Of a DNA stretch of 32,570 nt, positions 6,882 to 17,785 are shown in pieces (the first letter of the stretch is position 1; each line of letters starts with the position of its first letter). Below the pieces are notes generated by a model. That model was not told the DNA's origin. It was given only the letters and a program-made list of their open reading frames with translations, and searched no databases. Position numbers and translations under genes: made by a program. The stretch spans positions 1 to 32,570 of the forward strand of contig JAJYPK010000022.1 in assembly GCA_021795465.1 (NCBI GenBank), given 5' to 3'. Origin of the DNA: Bacillota bacterium (GTDB taxonomy: Bacteria; Bacillota; Sulfobacillia; Sulfobacillales; Sulfobacillaceae).

Positions 6882-7934
6882 ATGGACCAAGAGCCATACG
6901 ATATCTTGTCGATGGGTCCTTTGGAGTTGTCGGCGTTATTCACCGAACTTCAGGAACCACGGTTTCGGGGTCAGCAACTCTTTGAGTGGATTTGGCGGCA
7001 CCAAGCCCAATCGTATAAAGAACTGACAGTCTGGCCAAAGATCTTGCAGCAAAAAATGACAGACCTGGCTCCATTTTCTCGCGTCCAAGCTATCCACACC
7101 CAGGTGGCCACCGATAGCACCACGAAGTTATTGCTACGGTTAGATGATGGAAATCAGGTGGAAACGGTCTTGTTGCCTCATCCTTATGGGTATAGTGTGT
7201 GCGTATCCTCCCAGGTCGGTTGCAACATGGGATGTCACTTTTGTGCATCCGGAATCCTGGGCCGAAAACGTAATCTGACGGCTGGTGAACTTTTAGACCA
7301 GGTCGGTTATGCTCAGAAAATATTAGCCTCTCGGGGAGATCACGTGAGCCGAGTGGACCTCATGGGAATTGGGGAGCCCCTCGACAATTACCAAGCTATG
7401 GTGAAATTCATTCGGCTCTTGCACGAGCCGCGGGGCCTCGGATTGAGTTACCGACATATGACCGTGTCGACCAGCGGATTGGTGCCAGCCATCTATCGCT
7501 TGGCCGATGAAGGAATTCCGGTGACGTTGGCGGTCTCTCTGCATGCTCCGACCGATGCGCTAAGACTCGCGTTAATGCCAGTTAATAAGGCCTATCCGTT
7601 GGACAAGCTTATGCCGGCATGCCGGTATTACAGCGAAACGACCGGGCGTCGTGTGACGTTTGAGTATCTCATGCTGGATGGCATCAATGACTCGCCAGTG
7701 ATAGCGGACCAATTGGTGCAACTGCTCAGGGGATTTCCTTGTCACGTTAATCTCATTCCCTGGAATCCGGTTGATGAGCATCCTTTTCAGCCATCCCCGA
7801 TGAATCGCGTCCGCAGGTTTCTACAGATAGTGCAAGAACATGGAATTTCCTGTACGATACGAAAAGAACTAGGTCAAGAGATTGATGCCGCGTGCGGCCA
7901 ATTGCGCCGACGCGAGGAGGAGATTTTACGGTAA
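6882..7934 (+). CDS. rlmN: Dual-specificity 23S rRNA/tRNA adenine-C2 methyltransferase RlmN
   Basis: RlmN is a radical-SAM enzyme that makes m2A2503 in 23S rRNA and m2A37 in some tRNAs. The 350-residue product has an N-terminal accessory domain (about 1-95), the 4Fe-4S motif CNMGCHFC (C114, C118, C121), the SAM-binding MGIGEPLDN, and the C-terminal Cys (C338, in IDAACGQL) that forms the mechanism's transient methyl-Cys/disulfide. All key residues are present. ATG 6882 directly abuts the rsmB stop, with GGGAG just upstream. The last 40 bases contain the GAGGAGGAG that probably serves as the ribosome binding site of prpC. Confidence 0.95.
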   Translation: MDQEPYDILSMGPLELSALFTELQEPRFRGQQLFEWIWRHQAQSYKELTVWPKILQQKMTDLAPFSRVQAIHTQVATDSTTKLLLRLDDGNQVETVLLPHPYGYSVCVSSQVGCNMGCHFCASGILGRKRNLTAGELLDQVGYAQKILASRGDHVSRVDLMGIGEPLDNYQAMVKFIRLLHEPRGLGLSYRHMTVSTSGLVPAIYRLADEGIPVTLAVSLHAPTDALRLALMPVNKAYPLDKLMPACRYYSETTGRRVTFEYLMLDGINDSPVIADQLVQLLRGFPCHVNLIPWNPVDEHPFQPSPMNRVRRFLQIVQEHGISCTIRKELGQEIDAACGQLRRREEEILR

Positions 7935-8668
7935 AGACCTATGCAAAATCCCATCAAGGGTACGTCCGTCTTCGTAATGAAGATAGTTGGATGATGCGTC
8001 CCGTCGACTTTGACGGGTATCTCATCGCGGTGGCGGATGGTGTTGGCGGGGGACCGAGTGGCGGCGTCGCGAGTCGCATGGCGATTGAGGCACTAGACGA
8101 TGCGGCGGGGGTCGAGGTGCGTGACTCGGCGCGTCTGGTTTCTGCGGTATCCATGGCCAATCGTCGAGTTTTCGACAGTGGATCGGAGGAAGAAACCTTA
8201 CGCGGTATGGGTACGACATTAACGGCTGCGGTGGTTTTTCCGAGTCGAATCCTCTTGGCTCATGTCGGGGACTCGCGTGCATACCGCCTGACCGGAAGTC
8301 GACTGGACCGCCTGACAACGGATCATTCCGTCGCAGGAGAGATGGAGAAGGCGGGATCATTAACCCACGATGAGGCGATGCATCATCCGCGGCGTCATGT
8401 GTTGACGCGTTCGGTGGGGAACTTTAACAAGATTCGGGTGGATGTTGCGGAATTGGCATGGGGTACTCAAGATCGGCTATTGCTCTGTACCGACGGACTG
8501 TCGTCGGTGGTCACGGAAGATGAGATTGTTCGGTTAAGCCTCTCTTATAGCGGGCAAGAATTAGTCGATGAGCTTATTTCGGCTGCACTGACTTCAGGAG
8601 GGCCGGATAATATCACCGTGGTGCTCGCGGAAGTCACGCAGGATGTAGGTGATGCCGATGGTCGGTAA
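7892..8668 (+). CDS. prpC: PP2C-family serine/threonine phosphatase
   Basis: PrpC/Stp removes phosphate from Ser/Thr residues and opposes PrkC. Family metal-binding motifs are all visible: RNEDSW, AVADGVGGG, GMGTTLTA, AHVGDSRAY, LTTDHS, LTRSVG, LLCTDGLSSVV and GGPDNITVV, matching a compact catalytic domain of about 245 residues. The start is problematic. The homologous N-terminus should be close to xKTYAKSHQGYVR, but there is no ATG, GTG or TTG in frame near that point. The only conventional start is GTG 7892, which overlaps rlmN by 43 bases and adds about 13 residues. The strong GAGGAGGAG at 7914-7922 points instead to a non-standard start, with GTA at 7931 overlapping the rlmN TAA. The reported coordinates use GTG 7892. 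prkC begins within the last 11 bases. Confidence 0.88.
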   Translation: MRPIAPTRGGDFTVKTYAKSHQGYVRLRNEDSWMMRPVDFDGYLIAVADGVGGGPSGGVASRMAIEALDDAAGVEVRDSARLVSAVSMANRRVFDSGSEEETLRGMGTTLTAAVVFPSRILLAHVGDSRAYRLTGSRLDRLTTDHSVAGEMEKAGSLTHDEAMHHPRRHVLTRSVGNFNKIRVDVAELAWGTQDRLLLCTDGLSSVVTEDEIVRLSLSYSGQELVDELISAALTSGGPDNITVVLAEVTQDVGDADGR

Positions 8669-10598
8669 AATTTTGGGCGGACGTTACGAAGTTCTCGAGC
8701 GTATTGGGACTGGCGGAATGTCGCTAGTTTATCGAGCCCGTGACTTGACATTGAATCGGCTGGTAGCGGTGAAGATCTTAAAGCATCAATGGGCTGAAAA
8801 TGAAGAAGTGGTCAGACGCTTCGATCAAGAAGCTCGCTCGGCCGCCTCTCTAGTCAACCGGCACATCGTGCAAGTGTACGATGTGGGTCGAGAGGAGCAG
8901 GATGTCCATTACATGGTGATGGAACTTGTGGCTGGCGAGTCGCTGCGAAGTAAAATTGACCGCGAGGCCCCCCTATCGGTGATGGAAGCCATGGATGTGG
9001 TCGACCAGGTCGCGGCAGGCCTGGAAGCGGCTCACGGTAAGAAAGTGGTGCACCGTGATATTAAGCCGCAAAACATTCTCTTGGCCGAAGACGGCACGGC
9101 TAAGGTGACCGACTTTGGGATAGCCTATGCGGCCACATCGGGAACATTGGTGCACACGGGGTCGATGCTAGGCACCGTTCAGTATCTAAGTCCCGAACAG
9201 GCTCGCGGCAAAATGGTGGGGCCCCAGTCTGATCTTTACTCTTTGGGTGTGGTGTTATTCGAAATGCTAACGGGGCGGCTTCCCTTTGAAGGAGAGAGTG
9301 CCATTGGCGTTGCGATAAAACATCTGCAAGATGTGGCGCCAACGGTACAAAGCCTTCGCCCCGAACTGCCCGATGTTGTGAATCAGATAGTGGAAAGAGC
9401 GTTGTCAAAAGATCCGGCCGATCGCTATTTAACGGCGTCAGCGTTTCGACAGGACGTCTCTCGAGTGCTACACCCCGGGTCTCCCATTGAAACACCGTTA
9501 CCGGTCCCCTCCGTCTCACCCGGTCGAGGCGACGCCGGCGCTCTTAGTGCGGGACGAGAGAAAGATAAGGGGGGACCAAAGAAGCGCTGGCCACGGTGGG
9601 TTCCCTGGGCGATGGCATTAGCGGTGCTTATGCTTTTGGTGGGGGGATCAGTGTTTGCCTTTAATCGGTGGCTCAATGTGCCTTCGGTCGGCATCCCAAA
9701 TGTAAAGGGTCAGTCTTTGAGTACAGCCAAAGCCCGGCTCGGCACCTTAAAATTGGTCGCTCAGGTAGCGGGGAAGACGCCTTCAAACCACTTGCCGAAG
9801 AATTATGTCTATAATGAAATTCCCTCACCGGGAACATTGGTTAAGCCGGGCCAAATCGTTAAACTGGTGCTGTCTTCGGGACCACAGACCGCTCTGGTGC
9901 CCAACGTGAAGGGGCAGGATGAATTTCTGGCAAAACAAAATCTCACCTCAATGAATTTTCATGTCACGCTGCATCATGTCAATAGCCGCCAGCCGCAAGG
10001 TTTGGTCATACGGCAATCGCCTCCGCCGAACACCAATTTGGCTGAAGGGAAGGCGGTTACGCTTTGGGTGTCCAACGGCCCCCCTACGGCTACCCAATTA
10101 ATGCCCGATCTGCAACTTTTGACGGTGTCCGAGGCAGCGAGCGAACTCATTGGATTGAATCTTTCGATGGGAACACCCAATTCGACCTATAGTACCCAAC
10201 CCGTCAATACCATTATCGATCAAAGCCCGGCACCATATGCTGCGATTAAGGGAACCTCTACGGTGAATGTTACGATATCAAAGGGGAAAAGCCCGCAGAG
10301 CTCATCACTACCCGTCCACCATTCGACGGTGACTTGGCCGATTCCGTCGTCTGCTCCATCCAAATCTTTGCTCAAAGTCGTTGTAACCGACAGCGCGAAT
10401 AATGAAGAGGTCTTTTATCAGCAGGTCAATCCGGGGGGAACCGGGCAAATTATCTTCTCTTGGTATGGGTCTCACGGTTCCATGCAAATTTGGTTAAACG
10501 GCCAGGCGCAAGCCCCTCAGTCATTTACACCCAATAACTCGAGCTCTACGGCGCCATCGGGCAACGCCTTTAATTCTGGAAACGGGAATTCAGGATGA
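8658..10598 (+). CDS. prkC: PASTA-domain serine/threonine protein kinase PrkC
   Basis: PrkC-type kinases sit in the membrane, sense cell-wall material through extracellular PASTA domains and phosphorylate proteins on Ser/Thr; in Bacillus they also trigger spore germination. The 646-residue product starts with MVGKILGGRYEVLERIG. Its kinase domain (about 7-270) has the glycine loop GTGGMSLVYRA, K39 in VAVKIL, HRDIKPQN (D134), DFGIA (D152) and a Thr/Ser-rich activation loop. A basic juxtamembrane stretch leads to one transmembrane helix (about 316-338). Three PASTA repeats follow (about 341-409, 410-477, 477-543), then a Ser/Pro/Asn-rich, low-complexity tail of about 100 residues. ATG 8658 fits the family and has AGGTGAT upstream; GTG 8649 and ATG 8652 are alternatives. 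The stop overlaps rsgA (ATGA). Confidence 0.94.
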   Translation: MVGKILGGRYEVLERIGTGGMSLVYRARDLTLNRLVAVKILKHQWAENEEVVRRFDQEARSAASLVNRHIVQVYDVGREEQDVHYMVMELVAGESLRSKIDREAPLSVMEAMDVVDQVAAGLEAAHGKKVVHRDIKPQNILLAEDGTAKVTDFGIAYAATSGTLVHTGSMLGTVQYLSPEQARGKMVGPQSDLYSLGVVLFEMLTGRLPFEGESAIGVAIKHLQDVAPTVQSLRPELPDVVNQIVERALSKDPADRYLTASAFRQDVSRVLHPGSPIETPLPVPSVSPGRGDAGALSAGREKDKGGPKKRWPRWVPWAMALAVLMLLVGGSVFAFNRWLNVPSVGIPNVKGQSLSTAKARLGTLKLVAQVAGKTPSNHLPKNYVYNEIPSPGTLVKPGQIVKLVLSSGPQTALVPNVKGQDEFLAKQNLTSMNFHVTLHHVNSRQPQGLVIRQSPPPNTNLAEGKAVTLWVSNGPPTATQLMPDLQLLTVSEAASELIGLNLSMGTPNSTYSTQPVNTIIDQSPAPYAAIKGTSTVNVTISKGKSPQSSSLPVHHSTVTWPIPSSAPSKSLLKVVVTDSANNEEVFYQQVNPGGTGQIIFSWYGSHGSMQIWLNGQAQAPQSFTPNNSSSTAPSGNAFNSGNGNSG

Positions 10599-11464
10599 TG
10601 CTCCGGGGGCTGGTGACCCTGCTCGAAGCCAATAGACCCACGGTGGTGACGGAATCAGGCGTCGAATATTTGTGTTATCTGCGGGGTAAAGTGCGCCGAC
10701 AATCAGGGCGGATCTTGGTGGGTGACCAGGTGGAGTTGGAACCCACTGAAGGTCGCGAAGCGATCATTACCCGTGTGCTACCGCGTCAGCTTCAACTTGT
10801 GAGACCTCCGGTGGCCAATCTTACGGGGATTTTTGCGTGCTTCAGTTTGAGCCACCCCGCAGGTAGCCTAGAGCTTTTAGACAAGCGGTTGGTGATCGCG
10901 GCTCTCTCGGGTATCGCGGTAGAAATTGTGGTGACCAAATCGGATTTAGCAGAAAGTCCGGTGATACTGGAAGATATGGTCCAATTGTATCGATCGATAG
11001 GATATCGAGTTTGGGTGATGAGCGTCAAAACGGCGGTCGGTGTTGCCCCCTGGCTAGCAACCAACCGAGCCGGAATTTGGGTGTTAACCGGCGAAAGCGG
11101 CGTAGGCAAATCGTCTTTGCTCCATGCGGTGATCCCCCAGACCGTGATTGAGACCGCGGATCTAAGTCGGATCGGTCGCGGCCAACAAACGACACGATGG
11201 GTACGCCTCCTAAAAATCCGGGATTTTTTTCTCGCCGACACACCGGGCTATACGGCCCTGGAGACGGAAGTTGCCCACGCCCACGACATCGAGTCGCAAT
11301 TTTTCGAGTGGGAGGATGCGCGATGCCGATTCCCCAACTGCCTGCATCGAGGAGAACCTGGGTGCGCGGTGCGAGAAGGAGTGGCCAATGGGACGTACGC
11401 TTCTAGCCGATATCGCAGCTACTGCGTGATGATGGATCAGTGGGTAAAGCGATGGGGCGTTTAG
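10595..11464 (+). CDS. rsgA: Small-ribosomal-subunit biogenesis GTPase RsgA
   Basis: RsgA is a circularly permuted GTPase that helps late maturation of the 30S subunit. The 289-residue product shows an N-terminal OB fold (about 1-70, with LRGKVRRQSGRILVGDQVELE). The permuted G motifs follow: G4 as TKSD, G5-like SVKTA, G1 GESGVGKS (about 166-173), G2 region GRGQQTT and G3 DTPG. The C-terminal zinc site is CRFPNCLH...C (C244, C249, H251, C257). The G2 region has Gln-Gln where many relatives have a His before the Thr pair. ATG 10595 overlaps the prkC stop, so these genes are probably translationally coupled. The position after prpC-prkC is conserved in Firmicutes. Confidence 0.94.
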   Translation: MMLRGLVTLLEANRPTVVTESGVEYLCYLRGKVRRQSGRILVGDQVELEPTEGREAIITRVLPRQLQLVRPPVANLTGIFACFSLSHPAGSLELLDKRLVIAALSGIAVEIVVTKSDLAESPVILEDMVQLYRSIGYRVWVMSVKTAVGVAPWLATNRAGIWVLTGESGVGKSSLLHAVIPQTVIETADLSRIGRGQQTTRWVRLLKIRDFFLADTPGYTALETEVAHAHDIESQFFEWEDARCRFPNCLHRGEPGCAVREGVANGTYASSRYRSYCVMMDQWVKRWGV

Positions 11465-11970
11465 CGGAATGTTTATGGATCAGGGAAGGTTCTCCGTGGA
11501 TATCTGGCGCTTGGCGAGCGGTGATGGTGGACTTGGCGGCGGGTGAAGAATCCGTTACCCGGGAAGTTATCGCGAGATTACGACCGAAGACTGAGTTGCC
11601 CGTCTTGTTGCATATGTTAAGTGGGAAGCCGCGAGAAGATTATCAGGAGTGGCATCAACGTGGTGTGGATGTGATGACACTGACCTGGAGTCCCTCGCTG
11701 TCACCCCAGACACTGGTTGAGATGAGGATGGCGGGTCTCTTATGTGGCATATCCATTTCGCCGGATAACGCTGGGACTACGAAGCTCAGCGCGCTATGGC
11801 CTCTCCTAGATATCGTCATCGTGGTCGACGAGGGGGACGGAATTGAGAGTAAAACGACCGTGAAAGGATTAAGCGCCATGAGAGGCACGATGGATCGGCC
11901 ACTATTGGCGGTGAAGGACGCCAGGGGTCAGATGGATGAAATTGAGGCGGACCTCTGGATCCATCCCTAG
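11452..11970 (+). CDS. Degenerate, shortened ribulose-phosphate 3-epimerase-like protein
   Basis: The gene occupies the place where rpe follows rsgA in Firmicutes. The 172-residue product aligns by eye with the middle of a TIM-barrel ribulose-5-phosphate epimerase. VIARLRPKTELPVLLHMLSG resembles the family's LRPxTDLPLDVHLMI segment. GVDVMTLTWSPSL resembles GADIITVHxEA. GLLCGISISPDNAG, LLDIVIVV and GLSAMRG occupy the places of the later strands. Key residues are altered: the HVDVMDG box is approximately MVDLAAG, the DVHLM His survives but its Asp is Leu, the VNPGFGGQ phosphate loop is replaced by DEGDG, and the C-terminal strand and glycine-rich phosphate site are missing (172 residues against about 220). 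It is probably not an active epimerase. It may be a relic or a repurposed protein. ATG 11452 is chosen; GTG 11440 is an alternative. Confidence 0.65.
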   Translation: MGRLAECLWIREGSPWISGAWRAVMVDLAAGEESVTREVIARLRPKTELPVLLHMLSGKPREDYQEWHQRGVDVMTLTWSPSLSPQTLVEMRMAGLLCGISISPDNAGTTKLSALWPLLDIVIVVDEGDGIESKTTVKGLSAMRGTMDRPLLAVKDARGQMDEIEADLWIHP

Positions 11971-12028
11971 CCGCTTAAAGTGGTCGCCGTACCCATGCAC
12001 CTTTTATCGGGAGAATCGTACCATGATG

Positions 12029-12050
12029 AGTGTCACGAAAGCGTGACACT
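12029..12050 (+). other. Perfect hairpin upstream of a small membrane-protein gene
   Basis: AGTGTCACG (12029-12037) and CGTGACACT (12042-12050) form a perfect 9-bp stem with an AAAG loop. It is enclosed by a second, distant pair, GCCGCTT (11970-11976) with AAGCGGC (12053-12059), giving a nested structure that starts at the last base of the upstream stop codon. No U-tract follows, so it is not a typical intrinsic terminator. It could be a protein operator, an RNA processing or stability element, or part of a leader. The next ribosome binding site begins eight bases after the outer stem. Confidence 0.6.
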
Positions 12051-12079
12051 AAAAGCGGCCCGGTAAAAGGAGGGAGACT

Positions 12080-12301
12080 ATGCGTCCCATCCGAGGTTCG
12101 TGGCGGGCTCGTCGGCAAATGCCATATAAGCTAGGAGGAGCTGGACTCGCGCTGGTAGGCGGGATTCTTATCGTGAAAATTTTACCAGTGTGGATTTGGC
12201 CGGTCGGTGTCGGATTATGGCTCATGTGGGCAGGATTGGGTCCGATCATGGTGGGGGGATTTTTAATTTGGCTCGGCTATCGCATATTCATTGCGCGATA
12301 A
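12080..12301 (+). CDS. Small hydrophobic membrane protein, function unknown
   Basis: I do not recognise a family. The 73-residue product has a short basic N-terminus (MRPIRGSWRARRQMPYK) that would stay in the cytoplasm. After it come two or three closely spaced hydrophobic segments (about 18-33, 35-50 and 53-70), rich in Gly, Leu, Ile and Trp, ending in a basic RIFIAR. The ribosome binding site AAGGAGGGAG (12067-12076) is among the best in the window, and the upstream hairpin suggests separate control. It lies between the epimerase-like gene and spoVM, where B. subtilis has thiN, but the protein is not related to a thiamine pyrophosphokinase. A sporulation or envelope role is only a guess from position. 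Confidence 0.65.
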   Translation: MRPIRGSWRARRQMPYKLGGAGLALVGGILIVKILPVWIWPVGVGLWLMWAGLGPIMVGGFLIWLGYRIFIAR

Positions 12302-12354: not shown

Positions 12355-12444
12355 ATGCGGGTGCAGGTGGTGAAGGTTCCGCGCGTGGTGGGCAAGATGT
12401 TGCAGTTCGTGTTGGGTTTTTGGGCCACTAAAAGCGCGAAATAA
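12355..12444 (+). CDS. spoVM: Stage V sporulation protein M (SpoVM)
   Basis: SpoVM is a tiny amphipathic peptide that recognises the convex forespore membrane and anchors SpoIVA, the base layer of the spore coat. This 29-residue product, MRVQVVKVPRVVGKMLQFVL followed by GFWATKSAK, aligns without gaps with my memory of the 26-residue Bacillus peptide. K7, P9, G13, L20 and G21 coincide, including the functionally important Pro9, and the rest keeps the amphipathic pattern. ATG 12355 is preferred because GAGGTGA (12341-12347) lies 7 bases upstream; ATG 12349 would be too close. The position between the rsgA/rpe region and a reversed rpmB is exactly the B. subtilis location. This is strong evidence for an endospore former. 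No clear sigma-E promoter was identified. Confidence 0.88.
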   Translation: MRVQVVKVPRVVGKMLQFVLGFWATKSAK

Positions 12445-17509: not shown

Positions 17510-17785
17510 AATTGAATGCAACTGCGATGAGTGGGAAGAGTAGCATTGTAAAGTCTCCCCAGCGAGCCGATGGCGGTGAAAGATCGGCGTGACTGACCAA
17601 TGGGAATGGGCCCATGAGCTGCCAACCGAAATTTGAGTAGGCTTGGCCGGATTCTTCCACCGTTACTCAGGAAGACAATATCGGATTCGTCCTGTATTGT
17701 ATAAGAGAGACTCGATAGAGTCTAATCAGGGTGGTACCGCGGAGTAGCCTTCGTCCCTAGGTGGGAGGAAGGTATTTTTATTTTT
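17510..17785 (+). promoter_or_regulatory. T-box riboswitch, probable tRNA-Trp (UGG) type, with terminator
   Basis: T-box leaders bind an uncharged tRNA and then prevent premature termination. Stem I elements are visible: GATGAGTGGGAAGAGTAG near 17527, AGCGAGCCGATGGCGGTGAAAG (conserved AG-rich bulge and GGUG loop) near 17560-17582, and a specifier loop reading GAA-TGG-GCC, with TGG (Trp) at 17607-17609. The T-box itself is AGGGTGGTACCGCGG (17728-17742). A small hairpin AGACTC/GAGTCT (about 17708-17723) precedes it. The specifier agrees with the downstream trp operon. The competing terminator is listed separately. Confidence 0.9.
17748..17785 (+). terminator. Intrinsic terminator of the trp T-box
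   Basis: CCTTC (17748-17752) pairs with GAAGG (17768-17772), and TCCC with GGGA lies inside with a 5-base loop. A U-tract TATTTTTATTTTT follows (17773-17785). Its 5' strand (TTCGTCCCT) is the part that pairs with the T-box in the antiterminator. trpE begins 13 bases later. Confidence 0.85.

Follow-up and report, generated by a model that had tools for sequence, protein, structure and literature searches.

In the window analysed here, a stretch of 32,570 nucleotides from a Bacillota bacterium of the Sulfobacillaceae, the slot downstream of rsgA is occupied by a degenerate descendant of the epimerase gene rpe, which has lost the catalytic set while its protein sequence is under purifying selection, and which we therefore regard as a pseudoenzyme. 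The explanation that we consider probable is that this protein was made redundant by the Rpe of the Calvin cycle and owes its retention to a role in binding or regulation. The genome's family, made up of acid-loving bacteria of the Sulfobacillus type, displays several stages: a single intact gene, two intact genes, a degenerate but selected gene, and a deleted one. The features of the region are collected in Table 1.

Table 1. Features around the rpe slot (window positions).
Feature	Position	Strand	Basis or remark
prpC-like protein phosphatase	7892..8668	+	ORF; named from gene order and motifs
prkC-like PASTA Ser/Thr kinase	8649..10598	+	ORF; named from gene order and motifs
rsgA (ribosome small subunit GTPase)	10595..11464	+	Pfam RsgA_GTPase, 120.8 bits
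Degenerate Rpe homologue (pseudoenzyme)	11452..11970	+	172 aa; helices alpha1, alpha7 and alpha8 absent from the predicted (beta/alpha)8-type barrel
Promoter-like element TGCACC-N15-CGTA (ECF-sigma-like), 5' of the 73-aa gene	11996..12020	+	Alignment
73-aa membrane protein gene, 3' of the rpe slot	12080..12301	+	Conserved neighbour across the family
SpoVM-like peptide gene, 29 aa (MRVQVVKVPRVVGKMLQFVLGFWATKSAK)	12355..12444	+	NCBIfam SpoVM_broad

The degenerate ORF runs from an ATG at 11452 to a stop codon at 11968-11970, and an in-frame GTG upstream, at 11440, would give a form of 176 residues. Its start overlaps the 3' end of rsgA by 13 bases, and the alignment places the same overlap in the g11 homologues. 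The order rsgA, slot, 73-aa gene, hslO (the latter named from gene order and sequence motifs) is common across the family. No Rfam match was found inside the slot; elsewhere in the window, at 17518-17761 (+), the same database identifies a T-box leader (RF00230, 124.9 bits).

The family set comprises the 32 genomes with an rsgA match, mostly draft metagenome assemblies, divided among genera g1 to g11. The slot after rsgA carries an intact rpe in 18 of them (g2, g3, g5, g6, g7, g9 and g10), a degenerate gene in seven (two in g1, four in g11 and one in g4), and is empty in the remaining seven, all of them g8 genomes, where about 200-225 bases separate rsgA from the 73-aa gene. Neither profile used detected an rpe remnant in this g8 gap (best E-value of a permissive search, 1.7). 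Degenerate and empty slots are confined to genomes in which the Calvin-type rpe lineage exists.

The original prediction that the rpe slot after rsgA holds a degenerate gene is upheld by the synteny of this slot in the 32 genomes and, with regard to ancestry, by profile searches. Compared alone with the NCBIfam rpe models, the window protein (in its 176-residue form) matches across residues 38-129 with E-values of 3.4e-4 and 1.4e-3, its scores falling under every curated cut-off, and a phmmer search of the PDB retrieves the Rpe of S. pyogenes (2fli, E=1.9e-4) and 1rpx (E=2.5e-3). A Pfam scan of the window protein alone returned no match; of the seven homologues in the slot, five match Ribul_P_3_epim (PF00834), with a best value of 1.7e-12. 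Furthermore, a profile built from the seven degenerate proteins recovers the intact rsgA-linked Rpes of the family, with E-values down to 9e-31. Among the relatives, that of the same genus (57% identity) is recorded publicly as Sulfobacillus sp., and the g11 record is that of S. benefaciens AMDSBA4. The degenerate proteins also carry residues of the rsgA-linked Rpe lineage that are absent from the Calvin-type enzymes, namely LP before beta3, M55 and the RG...RPL residues. The window ORF does descend from the rpe linked to rsgA, an assignment that is firm once the relatives are included. Descent from the Calvin-type rpe was ruled out, because the residues shared with the degenerate proteins belong to the rsgA-linked lineage. 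No other family beat Rpe by sequence in Pfam, NCBIfam or the PDB, and the HisF-like proteins display a weak barrel resemblance.

In Rpe, two His and two Asp bind the metal, both Asp acting as acid/base, and Met residues stabilise the intermediate (PMC9978339). In an alignment of 28 rows, in which all intact family members carry the full catalytic set, the window protein has Met in place of His35 and Lys in place of Asp177 (of EVDGG), retaining Asp37 and His68 among the metal ligands, so that the set of two His and two Asp is incomplete. The three Met are all replaced (M39 by Ala, M70 by Leu, M141 by Val). The phosphate-binding segments have gone as well: the NPGFGGQ loop is shortened and rewritten, DGG lacks its GG, and the C-terminus stops before VAGS, in agreement with the announced loss of the VNPGFGGQ loop and of the C-terminal phosphate site. 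Two other elements of the original prediction need amending. The HVDVMDG box, described as lost, has indeed been deprived of its MDG (D40 is Ala) and of His35, but its first Asp, Asp37, survives in the window protein; the Asp of DVHLM is lost as described (Asp66, in DVHMM, is Leu), and the list of residues is corrected by the persistence of His68. Among the seven degenerate proteins, all have lost Asp177, Met39, Asp40 and the NPGFGGQ loop, and all keep His68 together with Asp or Glu at position 37 (Glu in the same-genus genome G007); position 177 is Lys, Ala, Thr or Gln, and His35 is lost in g1. Inherited residues account for 21 of the 29 conserved positions of the set, the others being mostly hydrophobic or aromatic, and this mostly inherited scaffold suggests that the fold has been kept, without pointing to a new binding site.

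The prediction of AlphaFold2 from the 28-row alignment is an eight-stranded barrel (pLDDT 88.9). With the seven degenerate rows only, the same strands form a compact barrel (pLDDT 84.6), so the barrel is obtained independently of the intact Rpes. The model has five helices; those missing are the ones that would link beta1 to beta2 and beta7 to beta8, and the one following beta8. Its best matches among solved structures are Rpes, with a Foldseek value of 1e-6 and a VIA-align Z-score of 20.0 to 1tqj_E (170 residues aligned at 2.4 A). Next come the DeNovoTIM entries, TIM barrels designed to be minimal, for which the compact predicted barrel offers a natural comparison. The window protein thus resembles Rpe (PF00834; 2fli, 1tqj, 1rpx) in its descent, its position after rsgA, its predicted barrel, the alignable stretch from beta2 to beta7 and His68, but differs from it by the absence of the second catalytic Asp, the MDG motif, the Met cage, both phosphate-binding segments and helices alpha1, alpha7 and alpha8, and by its length of 172 versus about 215 residues.

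Selection was measured in g1 (two genomes) and g11, g4 being represented by a single sequence, using pairwise codon models in our own GY94 implementation (F3x4), which is a pairwise treatment rather than a branch-specific one. The g1 pair G000/G007 gives an omega of 0.20 (dS 1.55), with omega=1 rejected (2dlnL 55.8), and three close g11 pairs give 0.24 (G031/G033), 0.17 and 0.27 (2dlnL against omega=1 of 33.8, 64.5 and 33.6, respectively); since the three g11 pairs share branches, these values amount to two independent tests, one in g1 and one in g11. The compared pairs postdate the loss of Asp177 in each genus, so that omega reports selection on an already non-catalytic protein. Constraint is weaker than on intact rsgA-linked rpe (0.04-0.10) and rsgA (0.05-0.11), the values being three to five times as high. 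Substitutions number 88 at third codon positions versus 50 and 40 at the other two, and the constraint peaks at residues 46-105 and is lowest, in g11, at the C-terminus. Stops are absent in all seven genomes, and indels between the degenerate homologues are in frame; in a neutral simulation at half the pair distance, the chance of a stop-free frame was 0.002-0.03 per lineage. The proposal that the open frame reflects selection rather than simple decay is borne out by these data, and the checks suggested with it (profile search, Ka/Ks, structure prediction and a search for another intact rpe) all gave concordant results.

With regard to epimerase activity, the same genome harbours a second, intact rpe (G000:C225:5351-5944(-), 281 bits), as the original prediction had suggested looking for. 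It sits between genes for phosphoribulokinase (PRK07429, 268 bits) and CbbX (505 bits with the CbbX model), both above the cut-off. Within this prk-rpe-cbbX locus (L088, 4370-6932), no RuBisCO gene lies between rpe and cbbX, and the large subunit is encoded on contig C216. In G020, the sole g9 genome, cbbL does stand between rpe and cbbX, in a cluster that reads fba-prk-rpe-cbbL-cbbX-gap-tkt, with names assigned by inspection; alongside it, this genome carries an rpe linked to rsgA, and both copies are intact. The prk gene adjoins the Calvin-type rpe in g1, g4, g9 and g11 (G000, G007, G005, G020, G029, G030 and G032) but not in g8. Two extra, related but divergent epimerases, apparently intact and outside both Rpe lineages, were noticed in G031:C22 (L027, 173 bits) and G005:C107 (L028, 183 bits).

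In the rsgA tree, g4, g1, g11 and g8 form a group (support 91/86), within which g1, g11 and g8 (98/94) and then g1 and g11 (100/98) are united. In the Rpe tree, a branch with support 94/93 separates off the degenerate rows, and the Calvin-type Rpes form a fully supported group; the AU test does not reject a tree that unites the degenerate proteins with the rsgA-linked Rpes (p-AU 0.56). The simplest history is a single degeneration in the common ancestor, followed by deletion in g8, although a single origin that includes g4 is not certain because the degenerate branches are very long (0.7-3.6 versus about 0.1-0.2 for intact copies). We propose that, in the ancestor of g1, g4, g8 and g11, the prk-linked Rpe of the Calvin cycle would have assumed the epimerisation of ribulose-5-phosphate and xylulose-5-phosphate. 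The rsgA-linked gene, formerly the housekeeping rpe, would then have been freed from catalysis, and its product no longer has the second catalytic Asp, the Met cage or the phosphate-binding loops; the folded, non-catalytic barrel would have been retained under purifying selection in g1, g4 and g11, and the gene deleted in g8. It is rare for pseudoenzymes of bacterial central carbon metabolism to be observed together with all their intermediate stages, and this family makes it directly testable when a redundant enzyme turns into a pseudoenzyme and when into a pseudogene.

That the degenerate protein retains some function appears very likely, even though the gene is dispensable in g8, and a binding or regulatory role is the reasonable, if less secure, expectation. 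Were it to act by binding, it would most likely bind a protein, either a subunit of the intact epimerase or something else encoded in the rsgA operon; the naming of any specific partner is doubtful. The overlap of the rsgA stop with the degenerate start in g1 and g11 suggests that translation is tied to that of rsgA, which would make a role related to RsgA or the ribosome as plausible as one related to Rpe. More speculatively, we can tentatively picture a lineage-specific Rpe pseudoenzyme that might scaffold or regulate either RsgA or the Calvin-cycle Rpe and whose TIM barrel would be unusually compact for a natural one, with all evolutionary stages present in one family. PDX1 is also a TIM barrel. 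The plant protein PDX1.2, a pseudoenzyme of this PLP synthase subunit, regulates vitamin B6 synthesis (PMC6829848); it resembles the present case in being a non-catalytic paralogue kept beside an active enzyme, but differs in family, kingdom and its role in vitamin B6 regulation. The plant TSB-like protein, a pseudoenzyme of tryptophan synthase beta, is an allosteric activator of its partner (PMC12727527); in it, as in the window protein, key catalytic residues have been lost and the protein retained, but the plant change concerns only two key residues, compared with several active-site segments in the window protein. Both offer, by analogy, earlier examples of regulation as the reason for keeping a paralogue that lacks catalysis. 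A search of openly accessible literature retrieved no paper linking Sulfobacillus with this gene, nor Rpe with the term pseudoenzyme.

Other explanations deserve consideration. The gene might be a redundant copy on its way to becoming a pseudogene, not yet interrupted by a stop and carrying constraint left from its enzymatic era; the intact rpe does make it redundant, its branches are long, and it has been lost in g8, but the compared pairs split after the loss of catalysis and still yield omega values well below 1, and stop-free frames in seven genomes with in-frame indels are improbable under drift. We regard such slow decay as quite improbable. New catalysis within the superfamily of ribulose-phosphate-binding barrels, reusing leftover residues of the metal site (His35, Asp37 and His68 in g11, and part of them in g4 and g1), is an unlikely alternative as well. 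It would account for the invariance of His68, for Asp or Glu at position 37 and for Trp79, which stands at the C-terminal end of beta4 and, like Trp116, is invariant in the degenerate set (some intact rsgA-linked Rpes also have Trp at these positions), but it fits poorly with the loss of His35 in g1, the variability of residue 177 and the loss of the phosphate loops in all; nor was a shared new active-site constellation found among the degenerate proteins on the catalytic face.

The frame could also be open solely to let translation continue from rsgA into the genes beyond, or to avoid the harm that a misfolded coupled product would do. This structural-spacer explanation, which the overlapping start and the translational coupling it suggests would favour, is very improbable: frame-keeping alone is not expected to yield an omega near 0.2, and in exactly the genomes concerned a conserved promoter-like element of its own precedes the 73-aa gene, g8 doing without the slot altogether. 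A scan revealed this element (TGCACC, a spacer of 15 or 16 bases, CGTA) in all 14 of the genomes in which the slot gene is degenerate or missing, but in no genome (0 of 16) where that gene is intact, a distribution that probably represents one event on the tree and not 14 independent observations. Together with the g8 deletion, it speaks against any need of the downstream genes for the slot. Retention of the pseudoenzyme for a binding or regulatory role remains the explanation that we prefer.

Further observations concern the region downstream of the slot. The 73-aa membrane protein has no match in Pfam or NCBIfam scans. Its gene and leader (window 12045-12300, +) exhibit an unusual conservation at the DNA level, which is less marked in g8 and g7: four-fold sites are identical at 37 of 38 positions between G031 and G033, versus 63 of 123 in rsgA, and at 27 of 34 between G000 and G007, versus 53 of 131. 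Expression, an RNA element and recombination are candidate causes. The SpoVM-like ORF, absent from the ORF list, occupies the same place in most family genomes scanned; the SpoVM_broad model gives E=0.14 for the window peptide and 1.1e-3 for its g8 homologue, both under the curated cut-off. Just 3' of the promoter-like element, the window genome G000 carries a perfect short inverted repeat, GTGTCACG-AAAG-CGTGACAC (12031-12050), of which the left half alone is well conserved in relatives.
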